54,567 nt of DNA from a virus. Below are positions 17,884 to 50,331 of the stretch, one piece after another; position 1 is the first letter of the stretch; the number at the start of each line of letters is the position of its first letter. The stretch spans positions 1-54,567 of IMG/VR virus record IMGVR_UViG_3300025326_000042. One strand, given 5' to 3'. Position numbers and translations under genes: made by a program. The notes under the pieces were generated by a model. That model was given only the letters and a program-made list of their open reading frames with translations. It ran no database searches and was not told the origin of the DNA.

Positions 17884-17947
17884 TATGTAGGCTCCTCCTT
17901 CAGCAACCGCGTTTCTCTCCCCACCGAAGGCCAGCAACCCAGGCGAA

Positions 17948-17979
17948 GCGGAGCGCATCAGCGGCGGAGCGCATCAGCG
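17948..17979. repeat. Perfect 16-bp tandem duplication
   Basis: gcggagcgcatcagcg occurs twice without a spacer (17948-17963 and 17964-17979). The duplication contains the stop codon of the small 44-residue gene, so the copy downstream is non-coding. It looks like a recent slippage event in the queC leader. Confidence 0.9.
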
Positions 17980-27463: not shown

Positions 27464-28965
27464 GCCCGCCTCGCAATCCCGCGAGCGGCAATGGCGTCAT
27501 TGCTGCCGGTGAACTTGCCATCGAGACCCAGAGAGATGTCCCGCAGCGGATAGTGCGCTGGACAGATGCCAGGCTTGTCGAGAGCGAAGACACGTGCAGA
27601 CGCTCCCTCTTCCAGTGTGGAGATGTAGAGGACGCCCCCCGAACCCGCGAGCCGGTCGTAAGTCAGCCCTGCGAATGTATTGACAGCCGCCGGAACATCG
27701 GTCGAATCCAGGATAGTCAGCCAGCTTAGCCCTCGATCCATACTCCGTACTAGCACAGGATTCAGAGCGGAACCGCCGCTGGCGAGCAGCACGTCCGCCC
27801 CGATGTCGATGATCTGGTAGGAGTAGGTGGAGAAGATAACTGGCCCTTCCGTCCACTGAGTCGCGCCGAAGTCGTCCGTATAGATGGCCGTTATGCGGCG
27901 GATGGCGACGATGCGATTCGTCGGAACGTGAAGCAGGACTCCGTGGCGTAAGCCTTCGACGCTCTGCCCCGCGCTGCCCTCGTTCCGAGTGAAGTCAGCG
28001 CCGTTCTGCGTCACCCAAGTGTTGGCTATTCCATTCGCCCTGTCGCCGATGATAGCGATGATCGCGCTGCTGGCCAGGTGCGTCATGATGTCGAGGAAGC
28101 GCCGCCATTGGAGAGGAGTGCCAGCTTGTGATGTATCCTGGTATACCAGAGTCCAATTGGCTCCATCGTCGATGCTCTTGTACACGGCGGGCGCATGTCC
28201 CGCTTCAGCGCTTGGGACAGCGCCGGTGGCGGCGAGCCAGAGAACGCCGCCTGGAGCGATTTCGACATCCTGCACCCCCCACCAGTAGCCGTTCGACAGA
28301 TTCGGAGCGGGGCCGATATTCGCCCACGTCACGCCTTCGTCGGTAGACCTCTGTAGCTGGCCGACATGTGGCCCGTATGTCGGTGAGTTGCCGTCCGACG
28401 TTGCAATGCGATAGAGATTGTTACCCAGTCGCTTGAGACTGTCGAGTGGGAACTGGCTGGCGGCGACAGGATCCTGCTTCAACACCCATGAGACCTCTAG
28501 TCTGGCAGTGCGACGGGGATATGTAGCAGAACCGCCAATAGGACTCTGCACCACGGTCGGCCAATCGTTATAGAGAGCGACAGGCCCGACAGCAATATCC
28601 TTCCCCTTCGCCAGCAGCGGCCACGCGGCAAACCCAGTAGCCGGTCGCAGCATCCGCACTGTCTCCATTGCGTCCGTGGACTTGTAGATGCCTACGCCTT
28701 TGATGAAGATGGCCTCAACGGAGATACGCAACAGCCGACCAGGACGCTGCCCCGCACCTACGAGAACTTCAGCGGACTCTCGCTCCATGCGGCCAGGCCG
28801 TTGTCCTGCTCCGATCAGGACTTCGGTGGAGCCGCGCAAAAGACGCGCCGCTCGTTGCCCCGCGCCGACAAGAATCTCCGTAGAGCCTCGCAGCAGACGT
28901 GCAGTACGGCTACCGGCAGCGACTAGCGCCTCAGTTGACTCGCGGAGCAGTCGTGCGAAAGACAC
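27460..28965 (-). CDS. Asp-box propeller tail protein with N-terminal 18-residue repeats (501 aa)
   Basis: The N-terminus consists of about five tandem 18-residue repeats (consensus ARLLRGSTEVLVGAGQRP), which look like an alternating coil or beta-solenoid. The paralogous GIYKSTD.../LRPATGF/LAKGKDIAVGP segment follows, then an Asp-box propeller (STDEGVTW, SIDDGANW, TDDFGATQW, SMDRGLSW). The GTG start shares one base with the preceding TAG. The protein is likely anchored to the tail by its repeats with the propeller outward. Function beyond probable carbohydrate binding is unknown. Confidence 0.8.
   Translation of the reverse strand: MSFARLLRESTEALVAAGSRTARLLRGSTEILVGAGQRAARLLRGSTEVLIGAGQRPGRMERESAEVLVGAGQRPGRLLRISVEAIFIKGVGIYKSTDAMETVRMLRPATGFAAWPLLAKGKDIAVGPVALYNDWPTVVQSPIGGSATYPRRTARLEVSWVLKQDPVAASQFPLDSLKRLGNNLYRIATSDGNSPTYGPHVGQLQRSTDEGVTWANIGPAPNLSNGYWWGVQDVEIAPGGVLWLAATGAVPSAEAGHAPAVYKSIDDGANWTLVYQDTSQAGTPLQWRRFLDIMTHLASSAIIAIIGDRANGIANTWVTQNGADFTRNEGSAGQSVEGLRHGVLLHVPTNRIVAIRRITAIYTDDFGATQWTEGPVIFSTYSYQIIDIGADVLLASGGSALNPVLVRSMDRGLSWLTILDSTDVPAAVNTFAGLTYDRLAGSGGVLYISTLEEGASARVFALDKPGICPAHYPLRDISLGLDGKFTGSNDAIAARGIARRA
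28693..28956 (-). repeat. Five tandem 54-bp (18-codon) repeats
   Basis: The 5' end of the 501-residue tail gene encodes five successive 18-residue units starting at residues 4, 22, 40, 58 and 76. Units 2 and 3 are nearly identical, while unit 5 has diverged. The period is exact in codons, so copy number could change without shifting frame. Confidence 0.85.
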
Positions 28966-36673: not shown

Positions 36674-37069
36674 TTAAACCTGATGGAACACCTGTGTCGC
36701 TGGTCGGATCGTGTACGACTCGTCCCAGAGTCCGCCCATGTCGCCTCCATGATCGTCGAGAGAGACATACCCGGAGCCATACCAGTAGTCCGTCGTCACG
36801 CCCCGATCTGGGTACATGTAGAACGATCGGGGTGTTGGGCTGTTGGCGATGGCGTCCGACTCCATGCCCCTGAACCCGGCCTGGTCGTAGTGCCTCCGGA
36901 CGGTCATCTCGAAGTCGCCGAATCCAGGCTGGTATGTCCTGTTTGTGTCGCCGTAAGCCGTATCCTCGATCCACTCCCTATCGAAGCTGACCGAGATCGC
37001 GGTGCCTTCAGTGACGAATGCGCTATTCCAGTAGAGATATGCGTTCCTCCACTTAATTGGCCCTGCCAT
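36674..37069 (-). CDS. Putative tail tube protein (131 aa)
   Basis: A small beta-rich protein with many aromatics and Gly: AYLYWNSAFVTEGTAISVSF, DFEMTVRRHYDQAGFRG, TTDYWYGSGYVSL. The YMYPDRG and tube-like strand pattern and the position just before the chaperones support a major tail tube protein, though it is short and could be one subdomain-type tube protein. GGAGGAGG precedes the ATG. Confidence 0.7.
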   Translation of the reverse strand: MAGPIKWRNAYLYWNSAFVTEGTAISVSFDREWIEDTAYGDTNRTYQPGFGDFEMTVRRHYDQAGFRGMESDAIANSPTPRSFYMYPDRGVTTDYWYGSGYVSLDDHGGDMGGLWDESYTIRPATQVFHQV

Positions 37070-37087: not shown

Positions 37088-38170
37088 TTACAGAGCTTCG
37101 AGCGCCTGACGCATCCGAGCTTCGAAGGTGTAAGGCTTCACGGCTTCGTGTTGCGCCTGCGCCAGCTCCTCTCGACGCACAGGATCATCCAAATGTCTCC
37201 GTAGCAGCAGACCTAACTCGTCCGGCGTCCTGTACGTCGGCACGGAGTCACCAAAAACCTCTCGCAGTTCTGCCCTCCCTTCATCACATACCTGAAATGT
37301 TCCGCACGCTGCAAGCTCATAGCAGCGGGGCGCGATACTGTACGCTTCGAGATTCTCGTTCGGCACAGCGCCAAGAATGCCGCGCTCGCCTCGCTGGATC
37401 GCTCGCATCAGCCTCTCACCTGTGATAGAGTCGTTTCGATGGAATTGCACTCCTATCCTCGAACGATGGTAGAGCCTCGTCGTCGCGTCGTTCAGCAATA
37501 CGCCACCTCGGACGAACTTCCGCAGCGGTGACATGTTCCCTAACGGCGTGATGCCATAGAGATGCATGTCGATGCCATCCCAGTTGACCTGCTCCAAAAA
37601 CTTGACGCGGCTCGGGAACAGGGTCATAACAAGCGACACGTCGATGTCCGGCTTCATGCCATTCGCAGGAGGGTAGTGGAGCGCGGGGTCGTAGGCGTGG
37701 CCGACGTAGAAGCTATGGGAGTTCTTCTCCAAGAACGCTGGGAGCGAGATGTTATCGCAGATGAAGGCGTAGTCGCACAGCTCAGCGAACTTCAGTTGCC
37801 AGGAGTCATCGTCGTATGGGCATTCTGTGAAGTAGATCGCCGTCTTGATGCCCAGCTTGCGGAGCGACTGCAAGACCTTCAGCGTCGTAGGTGACACATG
37901 CATAGGCGCGACGAGCCAGACAAGATCGACCTCCAACACGAGTGCCGCCATGACGATTCTGTCTCCCGCCATGAGGTTCACATCAACGGAGCCAAACCGC
38001 GAACGCCCCGTGCAGACCATCATCTCCGAGAAGTCGGCAAACGCTTGCCAGACCTTGCCGTACTCCATCCTCGTGACTTCGCAGCCAAGCTGCTCAAACC
38101 CCGCACATTGACCTCGCCAGACATCGCGTGTGGCGTATTCAGGAATGGGAGAGACAGCAAGGATTTTCAC
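37088..38170 (-). CDS. CgeB-type glycosyltransferase (360 aa)
   Basis: A GT-B fold enzyme of the CgeB/Glyco_trans_1_2 type: an N-terminal Rossmann start (MKILAVSPIP), DLVWLVAPMHVSP, GIKTAIYFTECPYDDD, a SFYVGHAYDPALHYP segment, and the C-terminal donor-binding RCYELAACGTFQVCDE followed by the PYTFEARM helix. It should transfer a sugar from an NDP donor. It lies between tail-tube and methyltransferase genes and is the last member of the sugar cassette. The acceptor is unknown. Confidence 0.85.
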   Translation of the reverse strand: MKILAVSPIPEYATRDVWRGQCAGFEQLGCEVTRMEYGKVWQAFADFSEMMVCTGRSRFGSVDVNLMAGDRIVMAALVLEVDLVWLVAPMHVSPTTLKVLQSLRKLGIKTAIYFTECPYDDDSWQLKFAELCDYAFICDNISLPAFLEKNSHSFYVGHAYDPALHYPPANGMKPDIDVSLVMTLFPSRVKFLEQVNWDGIDMHLYGITPLGNMSPLRKFVRGGVLLNDATTRLYHRSRIGVQFHRNDSITGERLMRAIQRGERGILGAVPNENLEAYSIAPRCYELAACGTFQVCDEGRAELREVFGDSVPTYRTPDELGLLLRRHLDDPVRREELAQAQHEAVKPYTFEARMRQALEAL

Positions 38171-38178
38171 AATTTCTC

Positions 38179-38703
38179 CTAGTTAATGCCTACAGCCACG
38201 ATCTCCATTGGGCTATATCGGATATTTGCTTTGCTCAGGCCCGCTCGCCAGCCGAGATCGTGCGCTCTATTGCTACGCCGCTCTCTACGAGCCGAGATTT
38301 GCCTGAACCCAGCCATCGTCATACACTGGATGAGGCGCCAGGGTGTGAAGCCGGTCTTATGATACTGGCCTTCATCCTCCTGACTGCCGTAGAGCGTATA
38401 GAGAACGATGCCCCAACGCTCCTCTTGTGAGCGAGCCGTTGCGAATTTCCGGCACGTCCAAAGCAAGTCCGGCACCCAGACTTCGAGACAGCCTTCCGGC
38501 TTTAGAGCGCGTCGCATCTCTTTCAGAGCGGGCACCACGTCGCTGTTCGGCAGGTGCTCAAGCACGTGCGAGGCGTACACTTCGTCGAGACCCCTGAATG
38601 GAAGCGCTCGAATGTCGGCGAGCACATCCGGGCGATGCATGACATCCACCTGGATGTAACCTTCTCGCGGCGTCGTGTTGCCACCGATCTCGATGCGGTT
38701 CAT
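38179..38703 (-). CDS. Class I SAM-dependent methyltransferase (174 aa)
   Basis: The protein matches small predicted methyltransferases that act beside glycosyltransferases: MNRIEIGGNTTPREGYIQVD motif I region, VLADIRALPF, EVYASHVLEHL motif, LKEMRRALKPEGCLEVWVPD. The ATG at 38701-38703 shares ATGA with the upstream connector stop; a longer frame from 38739 is not needed. It probably methylates a sugar or the glycosylated virion component made by its neighbours. Confidence 0.85.
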   Translation of the reverse strand: MNRIEIGGNTTPREGYIQVDVMHRPDVLADIRALPFRGLDEVYASHVLEHLPNSDVVPALKEMRRALKPEGCLEVWVPDLLWTCRKFATARSQEERWGIVLYTLYGSQEDEGQYHKTGFTPWRLIQCMTMAGFRQISARRERRSNRAHDLGWRAGLSKANIRYSPMEIVAVGIN

Positions 38704-39125
38704 GCGTTCACCCGCTCTTCGATCTCGACATCTATCCACTCGTGCAGGAAGACGACATTGCCTATCCTGACTTCTTCGTCTTCTCGCTCACCACGTACAG
38801 GCATCGAGTCAAGAGCTGTGGCGCCCAACGTCGGGTTTTGCAAGATGCGAGTGACGATCTCGTCTCGCCTATCCCTGAGCGCGTTGTTCGCTCCATCATC
38901 GTCCGTATAACGAGCGTAGAGGTTAATTCTGGCTGTCCAGACGAAGAGCGTATCGACATCTGACGAGTCTCGCACCGCTCTGAAGCCGTTATACTCGATG
39001 ACTGCGGCATGGGGATGCCCGTAGCCGAGGATGAGAAAGTTGCCTTGAGAGACTTGATCATCGTCGAACGCCGAGAGTGCTTTGATCTGCGTGGCGAGGC
39101 CAGTCTCGACTGTCTCATAGCTCAT
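38700..39125 (-). CDS. Putative tail terminator/head-tail connector (141 aa)
   Basis: The size, N-terminal helix and central strands (DVDTLFVWTARINLYARY) and the helix NALRDRRDEIVTRILQNPTLG resemble tail completion or terminator proteins of siphoviruses. It is coupled by ATGA to genes on both sides. The assignment rests on pattern and synteny; no decisive motif is visible. Confidence 0.65.
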   Translation of the reverse strand: MSYETVETGLATQIKALSAFDDDQVSQGNFLILGYGHPHAAVIEYNGFRAVRDSSDVDTLFVWTARINLYARYTDDDGANNALRDRRDEIVTRILQNPTLGATALDSMPVRGEREDEEVRIGNVVFLHEWIDVEIEERVNA

Positions 39126-39682
39126 GGCAACACCGTCCCGGAGTCGTCGATGATCCTACCGATTCTAGGATCTCTACCGAAGCCGCGCTTGAACCTCGAC
39201 TGCACGGCGTCTGAATCGTCGTAGACCGTAAGTTTCCTGGCTCTGCTGACCCCGCCGACCCCCACATACTCGGAGAGATCGACAGACCTGGTGACGCCCA
39301 AGACGGACAACGCATCCGACGCAAGCATCGTAACGCCCTTGTCGTACAGATCACGATATGCCTCATAACGCTCATTCGGCTCTCCACGCCCCGTGACCGG
39401 ATGAGCCATCTCGATCTGCATCACTGCGCCATAGACATTCAGCCGCTCCAAGAATGAGAGCGCCGCAGTCGCCGATGCGGGGACGGTGACGCTATAGCCT
39501 TCTTTCGTAAGCTCCATCTGGAGGCCGTAGTAGGCTTCGTCGATCCACTGCTCGACACGACCCAGTGGCGGCGTGCCAGTGGCCGAGAATGTGCCTCCAA
39601 CAGTCAGGTGGCGGCAGTGTGCTTCGACTGACTTGATCACAGAGGTGCCCGCTTGTACTTCGTATGCCGAGTAGGGAGCCAT
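39122..39682 (-). CDS. Putative head-tail connector or completion protein (186 aa)
   Basis: Residues 40-180 are mixed helix and strand (VEQWIDEAYYGLQMELTKEG, ALSFLERLNVYGAVMQIEMA, RYEAYRDLYDKGVTML), resembling phage connector or neck proteins. It abuts the GT4 gene with no spacer and overlaps the terminator-like gene as ATGA. The role is inferred from position. Confidence 0.6.
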   Translation of the reverse strand: MAPYSAYEVQAGTSVIKSVEAHCRHLTVGGTFSATGTPPLGRVEQWIDEAYYGLQMELTKEGYSVTVPASATAALSFLERLNVYGAVMQIEMAHPVTGRGEPNERYEAYRDLYDKGVTMLASDALSVLGVTRSVDLSEYVGVGGVSRARKLTVYDDSDAVQSRFKRGFGRDPRIGRIIDDSGTVLP

Positions 39683-40981
39683 CTACGTTCGCACTCCTAC
39701 TTCCGTCAGGGCTTGTATGGGCTCAGGCGGAAGAAGCGTCAGCTTAGCAGGACGCCGTAGCGTCTTGACTTGCACACGCTCCCACAGCCAGTCGATGAAT
39801 GGGTACCACATGTCTTTGACGAGGTGCTCCCAGTCGTACTGCATAGCGAACTCTCGCGCCCGCTGCTGCTTCGACTCGCGCAAATCCGCGTTGTGTAGAG
39901 TGCGGTATGCATCCTCCATCGCAAAGATGAGCGCATCGACATCGGCATAGGCTTGGAACGCCTGAAGCAGCGTAGGGATCTTCTTGCCCACGCGCACCAG
40001 CCAGCCGGAGCCACACAGCTCAGCGCACGCTGTCCAGTCTGTCGTAATCACCGGCACGGCACATGCTTGCGCCTCGATGAGAGGGATGCCAAACCCCTCT
40101 CCCATGCTGGGCAAGCAGAATACGTCCATCGCGTTGTAGAACCTGCACATCTCGCGGGGCGAGAACCCAGTGAGGTTGACATATGGGCGCGAGAAGCGCA
40201 CGAAGTCGTCGATGCCATACAGCTTTGCGAGCGCTGAAAGGTTCATCCCGCTGTAGCGTGTGTCGATCATCTCCGTGTGCGCGACGAGACGAGCTTCAGG
40301 ATGTTTGTCATGGAAGACGGCGAATGCCTCGAACAGCTCCGGGTAGCCTTTTCGAGACGGCCAGCCCGCGTTCCTCGCAACCGTGCCGACCAAGAAGACA
40401 TCAGGCTCAAACTCAAGCCACTTCTTCGCCTGAATCTTTCCACCCCTGTCATAAGGCTTGAAGATACTCGTCTCGACCCCATGCGGGATATAGTGATAGT
40501 CGAGACCCGCTTCGGCAAAAAGCCCAGCGGCGTGCTTGCTGTACGCGACCGGGTGATACGTCTGCCGCAGCCTATCGAGCACCTGTGGAGGGATCGTCTC
40601 GTGGTCGATTGGCGCGTAGGGCACCCATAAGAAGCCTCCGTGTCCGTAGTCTTGCTTGAGCACCCATACGTCCATGAGTGTGATAATCACGTCTGCATCG
40701 AAGTGCCTGGCGTGCTCCCACACGACATCGTTCCCCCAGCCGTCAGACCCGCTGACTGGATAGTGCGCCATCATCCTGCTCTGGACACCAGGGATGTTCT
40801 CGCCGACCGGCAGTACGCAGATACCTCCTGCGATACCGTAATAGCCGAAGATGCCGATCTCTTCGACATTCGGGTGCTGCGCCAGACGGGGGAGCAGGCT
40901 ATTCGCCTGCACGCCATAGCCGGAGCCAACGTGGGGGGCGTTTGACTTCCACAGGATACGTAGACCTTTCTTCTTAGCCAT
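39683..40981 (-). CDS. GT4-family glycosyltransferase (432 aa)
   Basis: GT-B fold with WKSNAPHVGSGYGVQA at the N-terminal acceptor/donor loop, a HGVETSIFKP segment, VGTVARNAGWPSRKGY, and the donor-binding EGFGIPLIEAQACAVPVI with the two Glu of the EX7E motif. DVIITLMDVW and HYIPHGV are typical of GT4 enzymes. The leader GGAGGATGATCCT precedes ATG 40981. It sits in the sugar cassette between a GT2 gene and a connector gene. Confidence 0.93.
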   Translation of the reverse strand: MAKKKGLRILWKSNAPHVGSGYGVQANSLLPRLAQHPNVEEIGIFGYYGIAGGICVLPVGENIPGVQSRMMAHYPVSGSDGWGNDVVWEHARHFDADVIITLMDVWVLKQDYGHGGFLWVPYAPIDHETIPPQVLDRLRQTYHPVAYSKHAAGLFAEAGLDYHYIPHGVETSIFKPYDRGGKIQAKKWLEFEPDVFLVGTVARNAGWPSRKGYPELFEAFAVFHDKHPEARLVAHTEMIDTRYSGMNLSALAKLYGIDDFVRFSRPYVNLTGFSPREMCRFYNAMDVFCLPSMGEGFGIPLIEAQACAVPVITTDWTACAELCGSGWLVRVGKKIPTLLQAFQAYADVDALIFAMEDAYRTLHNADLRESKQQRAREFAMQYDWEHLVKDMWYPFIDWLWERVQVKTLRRPAKLTLLPPEPIQALTEVGVRT

Positions 40982-40985
40982 AGGA

Positions 40986-41702
40986 TCATCCTCCTGCTAC
41001 TGCCGCTGGTCTAGCCAGCGATGACTTCTGAAGATGCTCACTCCACTTCTTGAGGAACCACTCGCCACTCCCCATTCGCTTGCCTCGCGTCGCGCTCTCG
41101 ATGTGGATCGCCTTCGCTTCAGCGACGAACCTGACGCGGAAGCCCCCCTGCCACGCTCGTAGGCAGAAATCCACGTCTCCCCATGCAAGCTCGCAGTCAG
41201 AGTCATACCAGCCAATGCGATCCAGCACATCGCGCCGCGTCATCATGAGAGCGCCTGTCACGCAGTCTACGTCTTGTGAGATGAACTCCCGCAGGGGCTC
41301 ATGATGTGCGATGTGAGCAGCGCCAATGCTAACTTGTCTGCCCAGAACTCCCATCACTGGAACCACTCTTACAACTGCGCCCGCGTGCTGGACGGTCTGC
41401 TCATCGGGGTATCGCAAGAGTGCTCCGGCGACACCGACCGACTGATCCTTGAGCGCTCGTTTGAGGTGTTCGAGCGCATCAGGGTCTACGAAGCAGTCAT
41501 CACAACAGAACGCGACGTAGCCTCCTACAGCAGCAGAAATACCCTGGTTAGCGACTGGCCCTGATTTCCATTGGTAGTTGCGGCTAAGGAGGATAATCTC
41601 GTATGGCACCGTGCTCTGTGTGAGGTGCCTAAGCGCCCGCTGGGTTCTCTCTTGAAGCGGGTCTACCGTGCTCATGATGACGGAGATCAGGTCACTAAGC
41701 AT
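40986..41702 (-). CDS. GT2-family glycosyltransferase (238 aa)
   Basis: A GT-A enzyme: LISVIMSTVDP start, YEIILLSRN, the YVAFCCDDCFVDPDALEHL strand with the DxD-like acidic cluster, GVAGALLRYPDEQTVQHAG, and DCVTGALMMTRRDVLDRIGWYD followed by WGDVDFCLRAWQ, all typical of rhamnosyl-type GT2 proteins. The ATG at 41700-41702 overlaps the aminotransferase stop by 8 nt; an earlier in-frame ATG lacks support. Confidence 0.92.
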   Translation of the reverse strand: MLSDLISVIMSTVDPLQERTQRALRHLTQSTVPYEIILLSRNYQWKSGPVANQGISAAVGGYVAFCCDDCFVDPDALEHLKRALKDQSVGVAGALLRYPDEQTVQHAGAVVRVVPVMGVLGRQVSIGAAHIAHHEPLREFISQDVDCVTGALMMTRRDVLDRIGWYDSDCELAWGDVDFCLRAWQGGFRVRFVAEAKAIHIESATRGKRMGSGEWFLKKWSEHLQKSSLARPAAVAGG

Positions 41703-42810
41703 GGACGCTCTCGTGTCGCTCAACTGTGATGCCATGATCACTCGCCCATGCTCGGATGAGCGATACGACATGTTCCAAGTCAGCTACGCCAAGCCACGGG
41801 CCAACAGGGATGGAAACCTGTCGCTCTGAGAACCTATCGAGACCTGGTAACGACACGCGCCATTCCCGATAGATGTCTTGTAAATCGTTTCGAGAGTGAA
41901 CCATGCTTACCTGGACGCCCTCTCGCTCCATGTATGAGATAAACGCATCTCGTTCAGGCACTAAGATCGTATAGAGCCAGTACGAAGCGCCTGGATCGTA
42001 TGCTGCCGTGAATTCTCGTGGCAAGAACGCATCGTAGTACCGAGCGTTCCACCGCCGTATCTTGACCGATGCGACTGCTTCGGGGAGGTTAGCCAGCCCG
42101 ATGGACGCGGCGATGTCGTTCATCTGGTACTTGAACCCAGGCTCAGGCGCCTGCTGTAAGCATCGCATGGCTGTCGAGTCGCGCCGGTCGAGCCCGTACC
42201 ACCTTAAAAGCCTCGCACGCTCATGCTCGCGTGGGAGAGTTTTGAGCGCTCCTCCGTCGCCAGTCGTCAAGTGCTTGATCGCCTGGAACGACCACGCGAT
42301 GTAGTCCCCCCCTATGAGTCCCAACGGCAAGTCGGCAAGCGACGCTCCAAACGCATGGGCGGCATCTTCGACTATCGGGATATGACGAGGCATCTGCGAG
42401 CGCAGAAGAGGATAATCACAAGGACGCCCAGCCCAGTCCACGCAGATAATAGCTTTCGTCTCAGGCGTGATCTTGGCGAGGACATCATTGAGACAGATGT
42501 TGCCCGTCAGCTCGTCCACGTCAGCCCAGACGATCTTACAGCCCCTGAGAGCCAAGGGCATTGTCGTAGCGAGGCATGTCATCGGCGTGCAGATTACTTC
42601 ATCGCCATGCCCAAATCCGATCAGGTGATAGGCGAGATCGAGTGCCGACGTGCAAGAGTTTGTGCAGAGCACCTGAGCGCCCAAAACCGGCTCTAGTGCT
42701 TTTTCGAACTCGGCGACCCTCGGCCCCTCCCCGATGTAGCCTGAGTGGAGCGTCTCCACAACGCGATCCTCCACGCCCGGAGCCATCATCACTTTGAAGA
42801 GAGGAATCAT
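41695..42810 (-). CDS. DegT/DnrJ/EryC1 sugar aminotransferase (371 aa)
   Basis: A PLP enzyme of the DegT family that aminates NDP-keto sugars. Seen: GYIGEGPRVAEFE, CTNSCTSALDLAYHL, DEVICTPMTCLATTM, IPIVEDAAHAFGAS and the PLP-lysine motif SFQAIKHLTTGDGG. Together with the GNAT gene downstream-overlapping its start, it suggests synthesis of an N-acetylated aminosugar. The required keto-sugar precursor enzymes are not in the window, so the host or another phage region must supply the precursor. Confidence 0.95.
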   Translation of the reverse strand: MIPLFKVMMAPGVEDRVVETLHSGYIGEGPRVAEFEKALEPVLGAQVLCTNSCTSALDLAYHLIGFGHGDEVICTPMTCLATTMPLALRGCKIVWADVDELTGNICLNDVLAKITPETKAIICVDWAGRPCDYPLLRSQMPRHIPIVEDAAHAFGASLADLPLGLIGGDYIAWSFQAIKHLTTGDGGALKTLPREHERARLLRWYGLDRRDSTAMRCLQQAPEPGFKYQMNDIAASIGLANLPEAVASVKIRRWNARYYDAFLPREFTAAYDPGASYWLYTILVPERDAFISYMEREGVQVSMVHSRNDLQDIYREWRVSLPGLDRFSERQVSIPVGPWLGVADLEHVVSLIRAWASDHGITVERHESVHA

Positions 42811-43292
42811 CAGAAGTGCTCCTCCGGCTCGACGCGCCAGTTTCCGGGAGCGATGTGTATGTCTCCATGTAAGGCGTTCGCAAGTAGATCATCGGCGATC
42901 TGCATGAACCCGAATCGGTTATAGAGACTGCGTGGTGACGCATGAAGAATCACGAGATCAGCGCTTGGCTGCTCCTCCCGCAACTTGCCCACCGTCGCTT
43001 TGAGAAGCGCTGTCGCATGGCCTCTCCCACGAGACTCGGGCCTCGTCCAGACGCCACCAATGCCTACAGCGCGAAACGTCCTCGTATCGCTCTTCAACAA
43101 CCGAATGAAGATACGTAAGATCGACTGCGGCGCCCCATCGGACGCATCCTCGACTTTGAGGATATATGAGGACGATGGCTTGATGCTCCACTTCCAATGA
43201 GGCTCGCGCATCATACCAGGCCCATACATGAGCGCGTCACCGGGGAGCACGGTGAGCGGAGCGAGGGCTTCCGTGAATGGAGTCACACTCAT
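42810..43292 (-). CDS. GNAT-family acetyltransferase (160 aa)
   Basis: The acetyl-CoA binding motif VWTRPESRGRGHATALLKA and the ILHASPRSLYNRFGFMQI strand-loop of GNAT enzymes are clear. ATG 43290-43292 overlaps the upstream stop as ATGA, and the stop overlaps the aminotransferase start as TGATG. It probably acetylates the aminosugar produced by the DegT enzyme. Confidence 0.9.
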   Translation of the reverse strand: MSVTPFTEALAPLTVLPGDALMYGPGMMREPHWKWSIKPSSSYILKVEDASDGAPQSILRIFIRLLKSDTRTFRAVGIGGVWTRPESRGRGHATALLKATVGKLREEQPSADLVILHASPRSLYNRFGFMQIADDLLANALHGDIHIAPGNWRVEPEEHF

Positions 43293-44134
43293 GCTATCGC
43301 CTCCTCGACTACGCGCCAGAACTCTTGCGCCGCGCCAGCGCATTTGTCGATGAGCGCGTCTGGGTCTCCGAAGCTCAGGCAGCCAATCTCGCCAGAGTAT
43401 GACACTTCGAGTCCGAGCGCATACGCGAGCAAGGCTGGAAGTCCAAATGGCACAGGTGTCCTTGGGAAGAAGACGAATTGTGAGTACCGCTGGAAGACAG
43501 CCACAGCCGCATTGTCCCTGAGAGCGATGCCCCCACAACCCTCGATTGTTGGCGTGATCATCCCTATCGGAACACCAAGCCCATAAGCGTGGACGAGCTT
43601 CTCCTCTCGCGCAGACCACCTGATCAGGATGTCGCTGCCATTGTCGGGGTGCCAGGGAGCACACCAGAGCGCGGCATCTACGGGCTCCGATCCATCGCGG
43701 CACATCTCATTACTAGCTGGCATCGGGATAGGCACGATATGGGTATTTGCCTCGATCTGGTAGAGCCTCTGATATCGCTTGGCGTGGAGCGGACTGTAGA
43801 AGACGACGGCACGAGCGCCCTCCAAAAGACGGTTGCGCCATCTGCTCTGCGGCTGCACCGGCTCCCACCAGTCCTGAGCGACATGGACATGGCGGGGATG
43901 GGCTAACAGGCTCTCGAAGACTTGATCTGGGTATCGCTTAATGCCGAACGAGATGATGACATCAGCCTGTTCGATGTCGCCCCGCTCCACGAATCCTGGT
44001 GGGAGCACCTTGTACTCCACTGTCTCAGGTGCGCTCTGCAAGAAGCACTCTATCGCAAACTCTTCCTCAGCTTGCCTCTCAACATACGAGAAGTCCCGCA
44101 ACACGACGACGTGCCGCATTTCTGTCTCTACCAT
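43289..44134 (-). CDS. Glycosyltransferase-like protein (281 aa)
   Basis: A GT-B-like enzyme: EQADVIISFGIKRYP, HVHVAQDWWEPVQP, ARAVVFYSPLHAKRY, THIVPIPMPAS and a C-terminal half with HPDNGSDILIRW, VHAYGLGVPIGMI and GLPALLAYALGLEV. The ATG at 44132-44134 has AGGAGGATCCT directly before it, which rules out the longer frame. It is the first gene of the contiguous part of the sugar cassette. Substrate unknown. Confidence 0.75.
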   Translation of the reverse strand: MVETEMRHVVVLRDFSYVERQAEEEFAIECFLQSAPETVEYKVLPPGFVERGDIEQADVIISFGIKRYPDQVFESLLAHPRHVHVAQDWWEPVQPQSRWRNRLLEGARAVVFYSPLHAKRYQRLYQIEANTHIVPIPMPASNEMCRDGSEPVDAALWCAPWHPDNGSDILIRWSAREEKLVHAYGLGVPIGMITPTIEGCGGIALRDNAAVAVFQRYSQFVFFPRTPVPFGLPALLAYALGLEVSYSGEIGCLSFGDPDALIDKCAGAAQEFWRVVEEAIA

Positions 44135-44153
44135 AGGATCCTCCTGACATGCA

Positions 44154-44501
44154 CTAGAACCGTTCTTCACGCCCAACGAGTGTGCAGGTGACAGTGCCTC
44201 CCCCTGCGAGCGTCTTGAAACCGAGCACGGCGTCGAGGTCTGCGTAAAGACCCGCGTCTCCGAAGTCAAGGTCGTCTGTGACGCCGTTGGCGGCAACACC
44301 GAAGTAGCCCAGAGTGCCCGCCGCCGCAGCCGTGCCATTCGTGACGGCGATAGTCAATGCCGTCCCCGCCGTCTCTCTGATATTGCCAATCCCCATGAGC
44401 CGGACACGGCGCCCCGCAGGCGGATCCCAGACGGCGGCTATCGTTGTCGAGAGCGCGGTAGGCGCGAGTGGCTTAACGTGCGTTCGTCTAAGATTCCCCA
44501 C
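44154..44501 (-). CDS. Small virion protein, probable decoration or head fibre subunit (115 aa)
   Basis: Ala/Thr/Gly-rich and beta-like (ALTIAVTNGTAAAAGTLG, GFKTLAGGGTVTCTLVG), as in small exposed virion proteins. The GTG at 44499-44501 follows GAGGAG by seven bases and overlaps the upstream stop by 14 nt. It could be an acceptor for the neighbouring glycosyltransferases, which is only a positional guess. Confidence 0.65.
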   Translation of the reverse strand: MGNLRRTHVKPLAPTALSTTIAAVWDPPAGRRVRLMGIGNIRETAGTALTIAVTNGTAAAAGTLGYFGVAANGVTDDLDFGDAGLYADLDAVLGFKTLAGGGTVTCTLVGREERF

Positions 44502-44721
44502 CTGCGGACTCCTCTTCGACTCCACCGGCTACAGCGTCGTCCGACTCGGAGCCTGCGGACTCCTCAGCAGCAACAGGAGCGATGGGCGGCGCAAGCGCCG
44601 CAATCGCCGCTCGCACGGTGGATGTGACAAGCTCGCCTGGAGCGATGCCCGCCTCTTCGCATCGGCGAAGATCGGCATCATCGAGACTGATTCTGAACTC
44701 TTGAAGTCGTGGCCCTGCCAT
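44488..44721 (-). CDS. Small acidic protein of unknown function (77 aa)
   Basis: The N-terminal 40 residues look like a small helical domain (ISLDDADLRRCEEAGIAPGEL); the rest is Ala/Pro then Glu/Ser-rich and probably disordered. It is coupled to the next virion gene by a 14-nt overlap. No family is recognised. Confidence 0.65.
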   Translation of the reverse strand: MAGPRLQEFRISLDDADLRRCEEAGIAPGELVTSTVRAAIAALAPPIAPVAAEESAGSESDDAVAGGVEEESAGGES

Positions 44722-44735
44722 ACGAATCCTCCCTG

Positions 44736-45044
44736 CTACGTAACGGGTGTTCCCGTAACCGCGCCTCCCGCGGCGGCGAAGTAGAGCTGATAGACGGTGC
44801 CATCGCTATGCCGAAAAGCGACGCACGGAGTCCCCGCGCCGCGCTGCCTCAGAACAATAGCGCCTGCGACGCCGAACAGAGCCGCAGTGCCGATGACTGC
44901 CGTGCTACTATCTACAGCGAGCGTATCCCCCGACAGTGGCCCGATGACTCCGGCAGCAAGGCGCCTCAGCCCACTGTCGGCGTTCGCGCCAATGGTCACG
45001 CTGCCTCCGATATGTAGTCTGCGTCTGATCTTCTCGATGCCCAT
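44736..45044 (-). CDS. Small beta-rich virion protein (102 aa)
   Basis: The sequence is Gly/Ala/Val-rich with a repeated strand-turn pattern (HIGGSVTIGANADSG, SSTAVIGTAALFGVAGAIVL, YQLYFAAAGGAVTGTPVT). This resembles short collar, fibre or decoration subunits. TAGGAGG precedes its ATG. It lies between the capsid genes and the sugar cassette. Confidence 0.7.
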   Translation of the reverse strand: MGIEKIRRRLHIGGSVTIGANADSGLRRLAAGVIGPLSGDTLAVDSSTAVIGTAALFGVAGAIVLRQRGAGTPCVAFRHSDGTVYQLYFAAAGGAVTGTPVT

Positions 45045-45054
45045 ACGTTACCTC

Positions 45055-45591
45055 CTAGCGGTTTCCGAGAGAGAGACGCACACCGCGAGGCGATTCTTCT
45101 TCGAGCTTACGTTCAGCGGGAGCGCCTTCCGGTTCGAGATCCCAGTCACTTCGGTCTTCGACATCTGGATCGGCACCGGGGTCGCCAACACGAGGCTTGC
45201 GCCCGTCTGGCGCTTGGAGTCCTGTGTCGAGATCGACCTTCGCCATGTCGTGCCTCGCGTATTCCAGATGCGCCTTGTACGGCCCCGACATGACGCTCCC
45301 AGTGAACGTCAGCCCACATGATTCACACCGGCGAGCTTCCATGTGCTCCTGTAACGGAACCACATAGCCGTGCTTGAGGAGCAACTCGTCGTTCCTGAGA
45401 TATTGCCTCCGGACGACTTGCCCAACACGTTCGATTACGTAGTCTCCATACTGCTTCATCCGGCCTGAGTTGACAACCCACAGCCCTACACGACTTTCGA
45501 CACGGCTCTTAGGCGGCGCACCTGGAGCTGGCGATGGCTCGTCAATAGAAGATGCCTCGCGGCGCTTGCGTCTCTTGCGATCTTCTGTCAT
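45055..45591 (-). CDS. C2H2-like zinc protein with charged termini (178 aa)
   Basis: Basic start (MTEDRKRRKRRE) and acidic end flank a central domain with CESCG followed by H-x6-H (HLEYARHD), a possible C2H2 zinc site. The strand-helix segment RVGLWVVNSGRMKQYGDYVIERVG precedes it. The ATG 45589-45591 follows GGAGG. It lies immediately after the major capsid gene; a head-completion or capsid-associated role is possible but unproven. Confidence 0.7.
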   Translation of the reverse strand: MTEDRKRRKRREASSIDEPSPAPGAPPKSRVESRVGLWVVNSGRMKQYGDYVIERVGQVVRRQYLRNDELLLKHGYVVPLQEHMEARRCESCGLTFTGSVMSGPYKAHLEYARHDMAKVDLDTGLQAPDGRKPRVGDPGADPDVEDRSDWDLEPEGAPAERKLEEESPRGVRLSLGNR

Positions 45592-45620
45592 TGGATCGTC
45601 CTCCTTTCTGTTTACTCTAG

Positions 45621-46610
45621 CTAGTCCACACAATCAGCGAAAAAGTATCCGCTTTCTGTCTCTGTGGCCTTCTGGTCAATGTAGCTGAACGCCTCGATCA
45701 CGTCCTTCTTCTCAGGCTCCATGCGATACTTCCTCATGAACTGGACGCCTCCGCCTGTAAGCGGCCTCCAGTAGAACGAGATGCCCGCCGTCGGCGTCAT
45801 CAGACCAGGCGTGGGAGTGGCGAAGAGCAGCAATGCATCGTCGTCGATGACTCGCGCCAATGTCAAAGACGCACCTTCCGCGCTCGACCTGTAGATCGCT
45901 CTGCCGACCAACACCTCTTCGATCTCAAGGATCGAGGCGAGAAGCTGGCGCTGCACAAGAGCGGGCTGGCCGGTCGTTGCGCCGCCCTTGATCCTGTCAA
46001 CGAGGTCTGGGTGATGCTTGAAGCGCCTCCACGGAAGAGCGCCCATGATGAGCTTGTTCGGACGCTGGCCTGTCGCGGCTTCCACAGCGTCCAGCCCATC
46101 TTCCAGATCAGTAAACGGGTCTGAGCCACCGTAGTCCGACCACTTCACAAAGTCTGTCGTCCCCGTCTTGGTCGTCCCCCACACGCTCCCCGCCATGAAG
46201 TCCGCAGCGAATGCTCGCTCACGGCGGATGAGCTGAATCTGCGTCGCCAGGATCGTCGCTTCGCGGTCGAGGTTGAACGGAGCGTCCGCGTTGCCGCGAA
46301 GCTCATCCGGGACCTCGACGCCGATGGCGAAGTTGTCACATCGATACGAGTTGCTGTTGTCGATGCGATACCCAGCGACCGCCGCTCGCGTACCCGGAGC
46401 ACGGAGCAAATGGCGCATCGCCTGCGCGTCTTCAGCGCCCTGGAAGAAGTCGCCTCTCGTGTACACCGCGTACACATCCGACTGCTTATCCACTCCTACA
46501 AGCGGAAAGCACTTGTCCGCAATGAAGAACTCCTCTTTGTTCAGGTGCGCGATGCTAACATTCGTCAGCAGCGCATTAACATGCACATCGCCCACATCTG
46601 GCTGTGGCAT
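45621..46610 (-). CDS. Major capsid protein (329 aa)
   Basis: The pattern is that of an HK97-fold/phage capsid protein E-like protein: an N-terminal arm (VSIAHLNKEEFFIADKCFP), NKLIMGALPWRRFKHHPDLVD with the P-domain-type spine helix region, QLLASILEIEEVLVGRAIY, and a C-terminal strand LMTPTAGISFYWRPL. It follows protease/scaffold and decoration genes in the standard head order. Leader GGGAGG is present. This protein should be the most abundant virion component. Confidence 0.88.
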   Translation of the reverse strand: MPQPDVGDVHVNALLTNVSIAHLNKEEFFIADKCFPLVGVDKQSDVYAVYTRGDFFQGAEDAQAMRHLLRAPGTRAAVAGYRIDNSNSYRCDNFAIGVEVPDELRGNADAPFNLDREATILATQIQLIRRERAFAADFMAGSVWGTTKTGTTDFVKWSDYGGSDPFTDLEDGLDAVEAATGQRPNKLIMGALPWRRFKHHPDLVDRIKGGATTGQPALVQRQLLASILEIEEVLVGRAIYRSSAEGASLTLARVIDDDALLLFATPTPGLMTPTAGISFYWRPLTGGGVQFMRKYRMEPEKKDVIEAFSYIDQKATETESGYFFADCVD

Positions 46611-46637
46611 ATTTCGTTACCTCCCTTCTTCTCTACG

Positions 46638-47027
46638 TTACACCGATGTGCCCGAGAAGCGGTCAGGGTTGACCATCACCTCGAAGAGCACACCGGAGGC
46701 CGCCGCTGGTGTTAGAGCACGCCCTACAACGTAGTCGCCTGCCGTGGTCGTCGGAGAGCCCCGACCTCCAGCGACCGCCGTGATCGCATCACGCTCGGCG
46801 ACCGCAGCGCCCGCTTCGAGCTTGACGATGCTCCCCGAGATGGCGAGTTCTCCCTCTCGGTCAACCGCTGCGGGCTTGTTGAGCAGGACACCTACGAACG
46901 GTGTAGCGGCGTTCACGCCTGCGACCAGCCTTCCGTCGTCATTCTCGATCATGATGCGATGCTGGTTGCTTGACAGGTCTCCGCTCGCGGGCAGTGTGAC
47001 TGACTTGATCAGCCTGTTCAGCGCCAT
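46638..47027 (-). CDS. Capsid decoration protein, DUF2190-like (129 aa)
   Basis: Ala/Val/Gly-rich small protein with strand pattern GVLLNKPAAVDREGELAISG, VKLEAGAAVAERDAITAVAGG and YVVGRALTPAAASG, the signature of DUF2190-type head decoration proteins that stabilise HK97-like capsids. It lies between scaffold and major capsid genes. GGGAGG precedes the ATG. Confidence 0.85.
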   Translation of the reverse strand: MALNRLIKSVTLPASGDLSSNQHRIMIENDDGRLVAGVNAATPFVGVLLNKPAAVDREGELAISGSIVKLEAGAAVAERDAITAVAGGRGSPTTTAGDYVVGRALTPAAASGVLFEVMVNPDRFSGTSV

Positions 47028-47052
47028 CTATGCGTTCCTCCCTTCTTGATCT

Positions 47053-47805
47053 CTATGAGCCCGTGCCAACGTACCCGCCGCGACGGCCCGAGATCTCCTT
47101 GTCGTAGCGGTCGTACAGGCTCTTGTCCTCAGTGGCGATCTTTGCGATAGCCTCATCTTCCTTCATGCCGGTAGCAAGGAGCGCTTCGATGCGCGACTTC
47201 ATCTCCTTGACTACGCTGCCACCAGCAGGTTCTCCCGTTGAATCGACGCCCCGTTCGCCAAAGAGCCCCGACTGGTGAATCTGGCTGGCATGCTCTCGCT
47301 CGCTTGCGATGTACGCCTTGAACTCAGCCGAGTCCTCGCCCTTCGTCTCGGCGAGCGCTCGCATGATTTGGAGCTTCGCCGCATGATCGCCGACCATCGG
47401 ATGCAGCGCCACGCTGGACTCCTGCGCTTGCCTTACCGAGTCTTCGTCGCGCCCAAGAATGACATCGCGGAATCGCTGCGTCTGGCGCTCTTGCTCAAGG
47501 CCGGTCAGGCGCTTCTCGGCAGCCTCCCGCGCCTTCTTCTCGCTGGCAAGCGCAGTCCTCAACGCCACTCCCTCCGCTGCGGTCATCGCAGCGCCCTCGG
47601 CTGGCTTAGGCTCTTCGCCTTCCGGCTTCGGCTCCGGCTTTGGCTCCTCCGTGTCGTCCTCGTCACCGTCTCCGTTTTTGCCCGGCTCTGGATCATGGCC
47701 GAACTTCACGGTCGCCTTAAGCGACGATGCGAGGCGCTGGAAGAGCGTTGTCTGATCCTTCTTTGGGAGCTTGTCGATCTCAAGCTCATCGACGTTTACC
47801 GTCAT
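47053..47805 (-). CDS. Nested scaffolding protein from internal start (250 aa)
   Basis: An in-frame ATG at 47803-47805 inside the protease gene is preceded by AAGGAGGATCAA, as strong as any gene start here. It would yield only the acidic, coiled-coil C-terminal scaffold. This parallels lambda Nu3 within C and Mu Z within I. The nested product is inferred from the ribosome-binding site and domain boundary. Confidence 0.8.
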   Translation of the reverse strand: MTVNVDELEIDKLPKKDQTTLFQRLASSLKATVKFGHDPEPGKNGDGDEDDTEEPKPEPKPEGEEPKPAEGAAMTAAEGVALRTALASEKKAREAAEKRLTGLEQERQTQRFRDVILGRDEDSVRQAQESSVALHPMVGDHAAKLQIMRALAETKGEDSAEFKAYIASEREHASQIHQSGLFGERGVDSTGEPAGGSVVKEMKSRIEALLATGMKEDEAIAKIATEDKSLYDRYDKEISGRRGGYVGTGS

Positions 47806-49017
47806 TTGATCCTCCTTCGCTGCTTTGTCCTTCGTGCTGCCCTTCCAATCTTCCGGCAGCAAGTCTGTTCTGCCCAGTGCTCGCGCTCTCTTCGTGATAT
47901 GTCTCTTTACAACCTCCTTGGCCTTGGATCGTCCAACCGCCTTGATGGCGTTCTTCAGATCGCCGACAGTCACGATGGGGTACGAGCCATCTGGCATGGC
48001 ATACCCCTTTGACGCAAGCTCCTCCCGCTTCTCCGGCGAGAAGTCACGCCCCTGATGCGGCGAGTCTTCCCAAACTGTCCGGCGTTGCACCTCCCTCGGC
48101 TGACCGGAAAATGTGACCTCTTCGCCCTCAAACGAAAAGTCCACGCGGTAGTAGCAGTCGCCACTGCTGATGACTGCGTAATCGTCCCACAGATCGACAA
48201 GCCAGCCGCCACCAGCTTGAGAACCGAAGATGCCAGGGAACTTGTGCCTAGCCGCGCTCATCACCATCGACTGCACATCGTTGTATGAGATACCTTCGAC
48301 GGTGCTCTTGATGAGGGGCGTCCGCTCGTCCGAGTCAACGTCGTACCAGCGCCCCTCGCTTGCCACGAGCGAGCGCAGTCCTTTAAAGAATGGCCTGGTC
48401 GTCAGCGCTGCTCCAATCAAGACGTTCTCGTATTCGTCTCCGGTCGCGGGGTCTTTCCAGGTCTCGTACCATTCGGGGCTGACGTACTTGAACGAGTCGT
48501 CCTCGATGAGCTTTCGCCCACGCTCCGTCCACTCAACCTCAGCCTCGATGCTGCCGTCAGCGTTCGTCGTGAGCTTCTTGATGTAGCCCACAGCGCCCGA
48601 CAGCTTCGTCTCATGCTCAGCGTCGATGGGGACGTGTTCTTGGTAAATCTGATCGTTGAAGTGCTCGACGAACTTCTCGTTGCCCTCCTCCGTGACCTCA
48701 ACGTCGCCCCACAGCGGGTGCTTATAGACGCCAGGTGCGGGGAAGACATTAATCGTCTCAGGAGGCTCAGCGCCCTCCAGCTCGATGAACGCTCGCCCGA
48801 GCGCGTCCTCACCCCCGAGCATCGCCGCATACGTGGAGCCCTTCATCATCACACCGTTAGCGTTCTTGAACGCGAACGCCTCACAGTTCTTGCCTCCCTT
48901 CGCCAGGCAACTCTTATGGGCCGAGTTGAAGACATGCACCCATTGCCGCCTCTGCTTTGAGCTTAGCTTCTTGACGTTGCTCGGGAGCGATTTGTCGTCG
49001 GGCCCTGAGTATGGCAC
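47053..49017 (-). CDS. ChaB-domain/Mu gpI-like capsid protease fused to scaffold (654 aa)
   Basis: Three parts are visible. Residues 1-60 are a ChaB-like domain (SLPSNVKKLSSKQRRQWVHVF, CEAFAFKNANGVM). Residues about 90-230 match the Mu gene I/U35-type prohead protease (VPIDAEHETKLSGAVGYIKKL, YVSPEWYETWKDP, IGAALTTRPFFKG). The C-terminal 250 residues are acidic, helical scaffold (EKKAREAAEKRLTGLEQERQ). It would mature the prohead and be self-cleaved. The start is GTG behind AGGAGG, 13 bases after a terminator-like hairpin. Confidence 0.85.
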   Translation of the reverse strand: MPYSGPDDKSLPSNVKKLSSKQRRQWVHVFNSAHKSCLAKGGKNCEAFAFKNANGVMMKGSTYAAMLGGEDALGRAFIELEGAEPPETINVFPAPGVYKHPLWGDVEVTEEGNEKFVEHFNDQIYQEHVPIDAEHETKLSGAVGYIKKLTTNADGSIEAEVEWTERGRKLIEDDSFKYVSPEWYETWKDPATGDEYENVLIGAALTTRPFFKGLRSLVASEGRWYDVDSDERTPLIKSTVEGISYNDVQSMVMSAARHKFPGIFGSQAGGGWLVDLWDDYAVISSGDCYYRVDFSFEGEEVTFSGQPREVQRRTVWEDSPHQGRDFSPEKREELASKGYAMPDGSYPIVTVGDLKNAIKAVGRSKAKEVVKRHITKRARALGRTDLLPEDWKGSTKDKAAKEDQMTVNVDELEIDKLPKKDQTTLFQRLASSLKATVKFGHDPEPGKNGDGDEDDTEEPKPEPKPEGEEPKPAEGAAMTAAEGVALRTALASEKKAREAAEKRLTGLEQERQTQRFRDVILGRDEDSVRQAQESSVALHPMVGDHAAKLQIMRALAETKGEDSAEFKAYIASEREHASQIHQSGLFGERGVDSTGEPAGGSVVKEMKSRIEALLATGMKEDEAIAKIATEDKSLYDRYDKEISGRRGGYVGTGS

Positions 49018-49036
49018 CGCTGCCTCCTACATAAAG

Positions 49037-49079
49037 AAACGCCACAGACGGCAATCTGGATCATCCATCTATGGCGTTT
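49037..49079 (-). terminator. Terminator-like hairpin in the capsid protease leader
   Basis: Arms 49037-49051 and 49065-49079 pair over 15 bp with two G-U-type positions and a 13-nt loop. In the minus-strand transcript the stem is followed by TTTCTTTAT. It lies just before the protease ribosome-binding site and downstream of a candidate promoter, so it could terminate upstream transcripts or act as an attenuator. Confidence 0.7.
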
Positions 49080-49127
49080 GCTCGGAGTTTAGCCACGTCT
49101 TGCGCGACTGCTCCTCATCATGTACGT

Positions 49128-49155
49128 ACTAGCACATATACCCTCTCGCTGTCAA
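49128..49155 (-). promoter_or_regulatory. Candidate promoter for the head operon
   Basis: A perfect TTGACA (49150-49155) on the minus strand lies in the 175-nt gap before the protease gene, but the -10 at 17-nt spacing (CTAGTA) matches poorly. An 8-bp palindrome GTACGTAC (49122-49129) overlaps the -10 region. Confidence 0.4.
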
Positions 49156-49192
49156 GAACCATGATCGGGCGCTGTGTAGCCCTGTGTCAGAC

Positions 49193-49504
49193 CTACCCCA
49201 TTGTCTCCGTCCGCTGGATCAGTATCGATCTAGGTGCATCGAAGCCGAACTCAGCTACGCGAGCAGGCGTCCCGCTGTTCGTCGCATACGCGAGCCGGAG
49301 CAACTGCATCTGGACATCGGGGTGCAACTCATGACGCTCGCCGGGGCCAAGCTCTAACAACTCAGGCTCGCCATCCAGCCCCCTGAACACCTGGAGCAGC
49401 GCACACGCGCCCAACCAGTCGATGCCAGCAAGCCTGACTCTAATCGGGGTATCAGACGCCAAGATCGTAACGGAGGTTCCTACGGTGCGCCGGAGGACAT
49501 ACAC
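49193..49504 (-). CDS. CsrA-like protein (103 aa)
   Basis: The N-terminus MYVLRRTVGTSVTI resembles the first strand of the RNA-binding regulator CsrA, and residues about 57-103 (GERHELHPDVQMQLLRL..., FGFDAPRSILIQRTE) align by eye with its remaining strands, including the GxxAPxxxxIxRxE end. About 25 extra residues separate the two parts, so it is either an expanded or partly duplicated CsrA. CsrA binds GGA in leader RNAs. It shares its start with the FkbM gene stop and precedes the long structured leader of the capsid operon, which it might regulate. A structural protein is the alternative. Confidence 0.5.
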   Translation of the reverse strand: MYVLRRTVGTSVTILASDTPIRVRLAGIDWLGACALLQVFRGLDGEPELLELGPGERHELHPDVQMQLLRLAYATNSGTPARVAEFGFDAPRSILIQRTETMG

Positions 49505-50331
49505 TAGTCGGAGATCCTACAAGCATTCACCCGCACGTGGGCTCTAGGGATATAAGAATAGACAAGTTCGAGCAGCCTCTCGATACTGTAACCCTGCTCC
49601 TCAAGCGTCGTATTGATATGAAACTCGCCTGAGAGGAACCTGACTTTGGAGAGCACGGACGGATCGGTGTGCAAGATACTGTGCTCCGCACCCTCACAGT
49701 CCATCTTGAGTAAGGTACAACCGCTCCGAGCATATTCATCAAGCACGGAGCGAAGCGTCCGAGATGAGACTGGCGCACGCACGCCCTGTCCACGAGTGAA
49801 TGCCGAGAAGCCCCCACTATTCGTTGCATGAGAGCCTGACAGCAACAGGGTACCTCCAGCAGCGCTGATAGCATACGGCTTCGCCACTACCCTGCCGTCA
49901 CAGCCGTTTGCTTTAAGGTTCCTAACCAGCCTCTTGAAGTTCATCGGTTCGGGCTCAAACGCGATGATGCGAGACGCCGAGTACTTCTTCGCAAGAAAAA
50001 TACTGACGACGCCGACGTGCGCCCCTACGTCAATGATAGTGTCTTCCTCAGCGGAGAACTCGGGAAGCCAGCCATCATCAAAGCGCGAATAGGCTTCTCT
50101 GAGCACGATTTTAGCTACGCCACCCGATTCATCATCGTCGATATCGAGGAGCTTTCCATCCAGCCACAAGCCACGGCCCTCGACGATGCGGGTGTGCTGC
50201 ACAAGTTCAAGCTCGGCACAGCAAGCATTTCGTAGACAGGGAGCGTAAAGTCTGCCATCGTCCCAGACACCAGTGGGCGACCAGCGGTGCTCACCAGAGA
50301 CACAAGGGGCTGCATTGTCTTGCTCGCTCAT
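49504..50331 (-). CDS. FkbM-family methyltransferase (275 aa)
   Basis: Residues about 90-270 form a class I methyltransferase of the FkbM family: TIIDVGAHVGVVSIFLAKK motif I, IIAFEPEPMNFKRLVRNL, ANGCDGRVV, TLLKMDCEGAEHSIL motif, FLSGEFHI. FkbM enzymes O-methylate sugars and related hydroxyls. The first 45 residues include a Cys-rich segment (CLRNACC). ATG 50331 is coupled by ATGA to the small zinc gene. It lies outside the contiguous sugar cassette but could methylate its product. Confidence 0.93.
   Translation of the reverse strand: MSEQDNAAPCVSGEHRWSPTGVWDDGRLYAPCLRNACCAELELVQHTRIVEGRGLWLDGKLLDIDDDESGGVAKIVLREAYSRFDDGWLPEFSAEEDTIIDVGAHVGVVSIFLAKKYSASRIIAFEPEPMNFKRLVRNLKANGCDGRVVAKPYAISAAGGTLLLSGSHATNSGGFSAFTRGQGVRAPVSSRTLRSVLDEYARSGCTLLKMDCEGAEHSILHTDPSVLSKVRFLSGEFHINTTLEEQGYSIERLLELVYSYIPRAHVRVNACRISD

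Follow-up and report, generated by a model that had tools for sequence, protein, structure and literature searches.

Separable head- and tail-linked glycosylation modules predicted in an uncultivated siphophage

The IMG/VR record IMGVR_UViG_3300025326_000042, from an uncultivated virus, is 54,567 nt long and is referred to here, over its whole length, as the window. The genome is that of a siphophage with the majority of its genes on the minus strand, and between 37 and 50 kb this strand encodes eight enzymes: four glycosyltransferases (GT2, GT4, a CgeB-type enzyme and GTB2), a DegT-family aminotransferase, a GNAT acetyltransferase, a small class I methyltransferase (MT) and an FkbM-family methyltransferase. 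We consider it probable that the phage glycosylates its own particle by means of two independent modules, one belonging to the head and one to the tail, that are expressed with the late genes. The main new result is a double dissociation of these modules, where MT and CgeB are found without GT4, and GT4 is found without CgeB. The original prediction had joined the enzymes in a single cassette; this gives way to two separable modules.

The tail module

The tail module consists of MT, CgeB and g368, the predicted tail-tube gene (Table 1). Relatives were drawn from IMG/VR and are named by lineage: A (identical copies, L002, L003, L013 and L014), B (L015-L018), C (L005), D (L004, a record that stops short of the cassette) and E (L041/L116, a 63 kb record), with L117 (G002), L118 (G003) and L046 (G006) being more distant. 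A scan with g368 uncovered one new lineage, L126, which has the same order of MT (55%), CgeB (58%) and g368 (72%); GT4 and GT2 are absent from this record, and GTB2 and DegT from the stretch of it that was read. Scanning with CgeB added six more loci (34-38%), L133-L138, all of which place a small MT gene upstream of CgeB and a g368 homologue (29-40%) downstream. Together with A, B and E, the three genes are linked in all 10 lineages found to contain CgeB. GT4 is absent from the available sequence of the seven tail-only records, two of which are shorter than 6 kb, while 35 records with GT4 are devoid of CgeB, with G000 serving as the positive control in both searches. Only A, B and E hold both modules. 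In lineage C, L117, L118 and L046, the head module is present, CgeB is missing and a different protein pair occupies the tail-tube position. In one of the CgeB loci, L136, an HNH-homing-endonuclease-like gene (7053-7784, minus strand) separates CgeB from the tail-tube gene and is read in the opposite direction.

The head module

GTB2 and GT4 are both kept in 7/7 lineages sharing this head (A, B, C, E, L117, L118 and L046), and GT4 is conserved at 70% between A and E, similar to the structural genes (portal, 74%; head completion, 68%). The genes found between them differ from lineage to lineage. GNAT, DegT and GT2 fill this interval in lineage A, and lineage B has DegT and GT2 with an unrelated GNAT (Acetyltransf_3, nearest PseH). 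Lineage E combines an A-type GNAT with DegT, a methyltransferase and GT2, and two further genes (L116:9530-11346, plus strand) are inserted between GNAT and DegT, encoding a 98-aa product and a virion structural protein of 500 aa (phrog_1645). The interval in L117 encodes, by inspection, B12-binding/radical-SAM-like, methyltransferase-like and third glycosyltransferase-like proteins, and that in L118 holds one small gene only. In lineage C the interval encodes three products, namely a methyltransferase, a protein of the DegT fold and a small protein that has a single hydrophobic stretch. In the DegT-fold protein, a histidine replaces the pyridoxal phosphate (PLP) lysine of DegT (SFYSTH vs SFQAIK), and because the nearest relatives of this homologue include both RfbH and the E1 3-dehydratase, the head sugar of lineage C is predicted to be of the 3-deoxy type and not an amino sugar. 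In essence, the transferase pair of the head module is constant and the sugar genes in between are exchanged. Three isolates of the same capsid family, Rhizobium phage RHph_Y52, RDJL Phi 1 and ValentiniPuff, have no annotated sugar genes from the capsid to the tail genes.

The association of GT4 with head genes extends beyond this clade. At least 576 IMG/VR stretches encode a GT4 relative, and a recognisable capsid gene was present in 17 of 50 such records tested. GT4 lies 0.3-5.2 kb downstream of the capsid match and on the same strand in 16 of these 17, the remaining record having its capsid match 7 kb downstream of GT4. The largest gene upstream of GT4 belongs mostly to head families, and the downstream genes to GT2, epimerase and methyltransferase families, as tallied by members per family, where a single gene can match several families. 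Among isolates, the nearest GT4 relatives (Mae-JY09, phiPsal1 and S-CBS4) are found at the major capsid protein (MCP)/neck or portal/MCP genes, with GT2, MT or an epimerase as partners. A naive chance estimate of about 1e-13 for GT4-capsid adjacency was discarded, because the records are related by descent and the seeds had been taken from head loci.

Enzymes and gene layout

The eight enzymes named in the original prediction are all confirmed, seven by Pfam matches above the family cut-offs and the fourth glycosyltransferase, GTB2, as probable from a partial structure model. Motifs are intact in GT2 (CDDC), GT4 (E-x7-E, with E295 and E303 invariant), GNAT (RGRGHA) and FkbM (DVGAHVG). DegT retains its PLP lysine, in SFQAIKHLTTGDGG, and also matches the DegT/DnrJ/EryC1 family profile. 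The A-type DegT is nearest to the sugar aminotransferases AtS13/CalS13, namely 4zwv/4xau and CalS13 (4zas), which we take to be TDP-4-keto-6-deoxyglucose 4-aminotransferases. GTB2 gave no matches in the family search, and profile comparison detected no kinship to GT4 or CgeB. Its model (pLDDT 62) has a well-modelled N-terminal half and an unreliable C-terminal half, and against the PDB it retrieves GT-B glycosyltransferases (best GlgM, E 4.6e-4, also MGD1, SenB and BshA), so that a GT-B fold is probable.

The enzyme genes are interleaved with head and tail genes, as had been proposed, either overlapping by 1-8 nt or abutting. GNAT and DegT overlap by 1 nt, DegT and GT2 by 8 nt, the predicted tail-terminator gene (38700-39125) and MT by 4 nt, and FkbM and the gene at 49193-49504 by 1 nt, while GT4 and the predicted head-completion gene abut. 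Starts were corrected for GTB2 (44134), GNAT (43292), GT2 (41702) and MT (38703) using ribosome-binding sites and homologues. Compared with lineages B and E, dN is well below dS for the enzyme genes where dS could be estimated, with dS near saturation; these are real genes and no chance open reading frames (ORFs).

The late genes run from 54.5 kb downward in the order terminase, portal, neck1, FkbM, protease, cement, capsid, small head-region proteins, sugar genes, head completion, tail terminator, MT, CgeB, tail tube, chaperone and tape measure protein (TMP), where the head-completion, tail-terminator, tail-tube and chaperone identities are predicted. Promoter-like and terminator-like sites show no excess over shuffled sequence.

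Proposed mechanism

From gene content and linkage, we infer the enzyme activities, the sugar, its acceptors and a role as a glycan coat altering the particle surface. In the head, DegT would convert a host NDP-4-keto-6-deoxyhexose to a 4-amino sugar, which GNAT would N-acetylate. No NAD-dependent sugar dehydratase or epimerase was found in the window, and the phage would therefore need a keto-sugar from the host. GTB2, GT2 and GT4 would then attach the sugar to a head protein, be it the capsid protein, g448 or another head-surface protein. In the tail, the CgeB-type transferase would glycosylate the predicted tail-tube protein and MT would methylate the resulting glycan. It is most likely that each module modifies its linked structural protein.

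The original prediction of a methylated N-acetylaminosugar on a virion protein, made with the late genes, stands in part. Virion-protein glycosylation with late expression is supported as the best reading by the linkage to capsid and tail-tube genes, and the amino sugar and its N-acetyl group are in keeping with the AtS13/CalS13-like DegT and with the PseH-like GNAT in the corresponding slot of lineage B. MT and CgeB go with the predicted tail-tube gene and are set apart from the amino-sugar genes. The small Ala/Thr-rich proteins proposed as targets fared unequally. The Thr-rich g448 stays a candidate and has the C-terminal end TGTPVT in A, B and E. The other, g443, is missing from lineage E (L116), which retains the full cassette, and was dropped as an acceptor; its structure model (pLDDT 55) was too poor for use.

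We also lean, with less assurance, towards a modular history, where the MT-CgeB-tail tube block moves among phages with unrelated heads, a separate GTB2-GT4 chassis downstream of the capsid gene takes interchangeable sugar genes, and the head sugar has diversified among relatives (N-acetylamino vs 3-deoxy). In that case, phages would have dedicated glycosylation systems for head and tail that can be swapped.

Several points weigh against the two-module reading. The phage is known here from its genes alone, from which both the glycan and its site are deduced. Linkage is no proof of substrate, as neighbouring genes may travel together by recombination. The tail-tube assignment of g368 is a prediction from its position and a weak similarity to a major tail protein (hhalign E 0.005, low probability), with no PHROG match and no meaningful PDB match. 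Many records are fragments, making absences provisional. The tail-module MT of lineage E (L116:16156-16608, plus strand) does not have the N-terminal S-adenosylmethionine (SAM)-binding motif and may be decaying. As for GT4, head-located seeds served as the reference for ranking its relatives by similarity, the 17 capsid-bearing records are partly non-independent (L102 and L105 look near-identical), in TJE1 both GT4 and sugar genes lie upstream of the terminase, and in S-EIVl a GT4 gene is remote from the head genes.

Alternative explanations

Three other readings of the enzymes were weighed. That they glycosylate phage DNA, on a 7-deazaguanine base made by QueC and DpdA, much as other phages put sugars on modified bases to resist restriction, was already the weaker alternative in the original prediction and we regard it as very unlikely. 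A DpdA/TGT-like gene (phrog_887, 6.1e-11) does adjoin QueC in the window (16199-17958, minus strand), predicting 7-deazaguanine DNA modification, and lineage E also has a DpdA-like gene and QueC. DNA-base modification is moreover a known role of some phage glycosyltransferases, which can act on DNA bases according to a statement in PMC12619734 citing Pyle 2024. However, these genes are about 20 kb distant from the cassette, whose linkage to capsid and tail-tube genes counts against a DNA target. A further objection is that seven other records with GT4, several of which exceed 60 kb, yielded neither DpdA nor QueC, though these records may be fragments.

It is also improbable that the enzymes act late in infection on polysaccharide or lipid of the host surface, for instance as a block to superinfection or to keep progeny from adhering to debris. 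Polysaccharide loci typically contain enzymes such as DegT, GNAT, GT2 and GT4, but no gene that is clearly a membrane flippase, a polymerase or a lipid carrier is found among those of the cassette. The tail module is tied to one structural gene in 10/10 lineages, the usual place of GT4 is behind the capsid gene, and it is this linkage to particle genes, together with the lack of clear membrane components, that disfavours a host target. Little probability is likewise given to a single pathway whose product, one methylated N-acetylaminosugar glycan, is attached to one small head protein rich in Ala and Thr. The collinearity of all genes in A, B and E fits such a scheme, and one shared pathway could operate within these lineages, but the separate occurrence of MT-CgeB and GT4 and the loss of g443 from lineage E argue against it, and it was L126 and L133-L138 that led us to abandon a single cassette.

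Virion glycosylation is, to our knowledge, documented in few phages. If two-module glycosylation of the particle is correct, the GT4 family would become a marker of virion glycosylation in hundreds of uncultivated phages, and every transferase would gain a predicted substrate, either a head protein or the tail tube. The purpose of virion glycans could be tested with relatives that differ by one module or one sugar gene, and the modules would be a source of compact phage enzymes modifying a defined protein.

Other features of the window and its relatives

The FkbM methyltransferase gene, present in A, has a 45% homologue in L117 and none in L005 or L116, and is counted in neither module. L117 also has, adjoining FkbM among its late genes (16441-17976, minus strand), a gene for a subtilisin-like protein recognised by inspection. 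Elsewhere in the window, a single ORF (9857-13240, minus strand) combines uracil-DNA glycosylase, 3'-5' exonuclease and family A DNA polymerase with an HNH-bearing intein; an MT-A70 methyltransferase lies at 13155-13766; and a tail-region protein (27460-28965, minus strand) carries a tandem repeat (RLLRGSTEVLVGAGQR-like, about 18 residues) in its N-terminal part. A search of phage isolates with the window gave no nucleotide matches, and capsid and GT4 profiles run against genome contigs for a host found no relative.

Table 1. Features of the window discussed in the text.
Feature	Position	Strand	Evidence
FkbM-family methyltransferase	49504..50331	-	PF05050 9.7e-17; fkbM_fam 92.7 bits, above cut-off; between neck1 and protease
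Major capsid protein, cap_E type, possible acceptor	45621..46610	-	PF03864 1.4e-6; phrog_1005 1.6e-68
g448, small head-region protein, Thr-rich C-terminus, candidate acceptor	44736..45044	-	kept in A, B, C, E
g443, small Thr/Ala-rich protein	44154..44501	-	absent in lineage E
GTB2, probable GT-B glycosyltransferase	43289..44134	-	Foldseek GlgM E 4.6e-4; homologues in 7 lineages
GNAT acetyltransferase, predicted sugar N-acetyltransferase	42810..43292	-	PF13527 8.7e-11
DegT-family sugar aminotransferase	41695..42810	-	PF01041 2.5e-65, 221.5 bits
GT2 glycosyltransferase	40986..41702	-	PF00535 1.4e-7; found in A, B, E
GT4 glycosyltransferase, phrog_2170	39683..40981	-	PF13692 1.1e-16; phrog_2170 2.1e-38
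Predicted head-completion protein	39122..39682	-	position and conservation; no family match
Predicted tail-terminator protein	38700..39125	-	position and conservation; no family match
Small class I methyltransferase (MT)	38179..38703	-	PF08241 5.5e-7; upstream of CgeB in 10/10 lineages
CgeB-type glycosyltransferase	37088..38170	-	PF13524 (Glyco_trans_1_2) 3.5e-16; 59.9 vs cut-off 25 bits
g368, predicted tail tube, predicted CgeB acceptor	36674..37069	-	between tail terminator and TMP; downstream of CgeB in 10/10 lineages

Comparison with known systems

The amino-sugar genes resemble bacterial pathways of the PseC/PseH and AtS13/CalS13 type, in which a DegT-family aminotransferase is followed by a GNAT, but, in contrast to those pathways, the window does not encode the dehydratase step. 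Scores fall far below the curated equivalog cut-offs for PseC (174.1 vs 423.5 bits) and, with the lineage B GNAT, for PseH (35 vs 93.1 bits). Microcystis phage Mae-JY09, Pontimonas phage phiPsal1 and Synechococcus phage S-CBS4 likewise have a homologous GT4 beside the MCP, neck or portal gene, but differ in their heads and hosts, and DegT and GNAT were not seen next to their GT4. No paper in the literature searched combined phage, CgeB and glycosyltransferase.

Mycobacteriophages glycosylate both capsid and tail tube (PMC12363180, PMC11600133, PMC4351075), and Corndog has methyltransferase and glycosyltransferase genes between portal and protease (PMC4351075). The window resembles Corndog (gp35-38), Che8 (gp110) and Myrna in its phage-encoded glycosyltransferases and, like Corndog with its O-methyltransferase among the virion genes, has glycosyltransferase and methyltransferase genes inside the virion gene cluster, an arrangement of the Corndog/Che8 type. 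At the sequence level, mycobacteriophages were absent among the tblastn matches listed for GT4, GTB2, CgeB, DegT, MT, GT2 and FkbM. Unlike the mycobacteriophage systems, the window phage has sugar-synthesis genes and two modules that are each bound to their own structural genes. While glycosylation of capsid and tail tube is already known from mycobacteriophages, what our comparison adds is predicted sugar synthesis and the division of the system into two separable modules.

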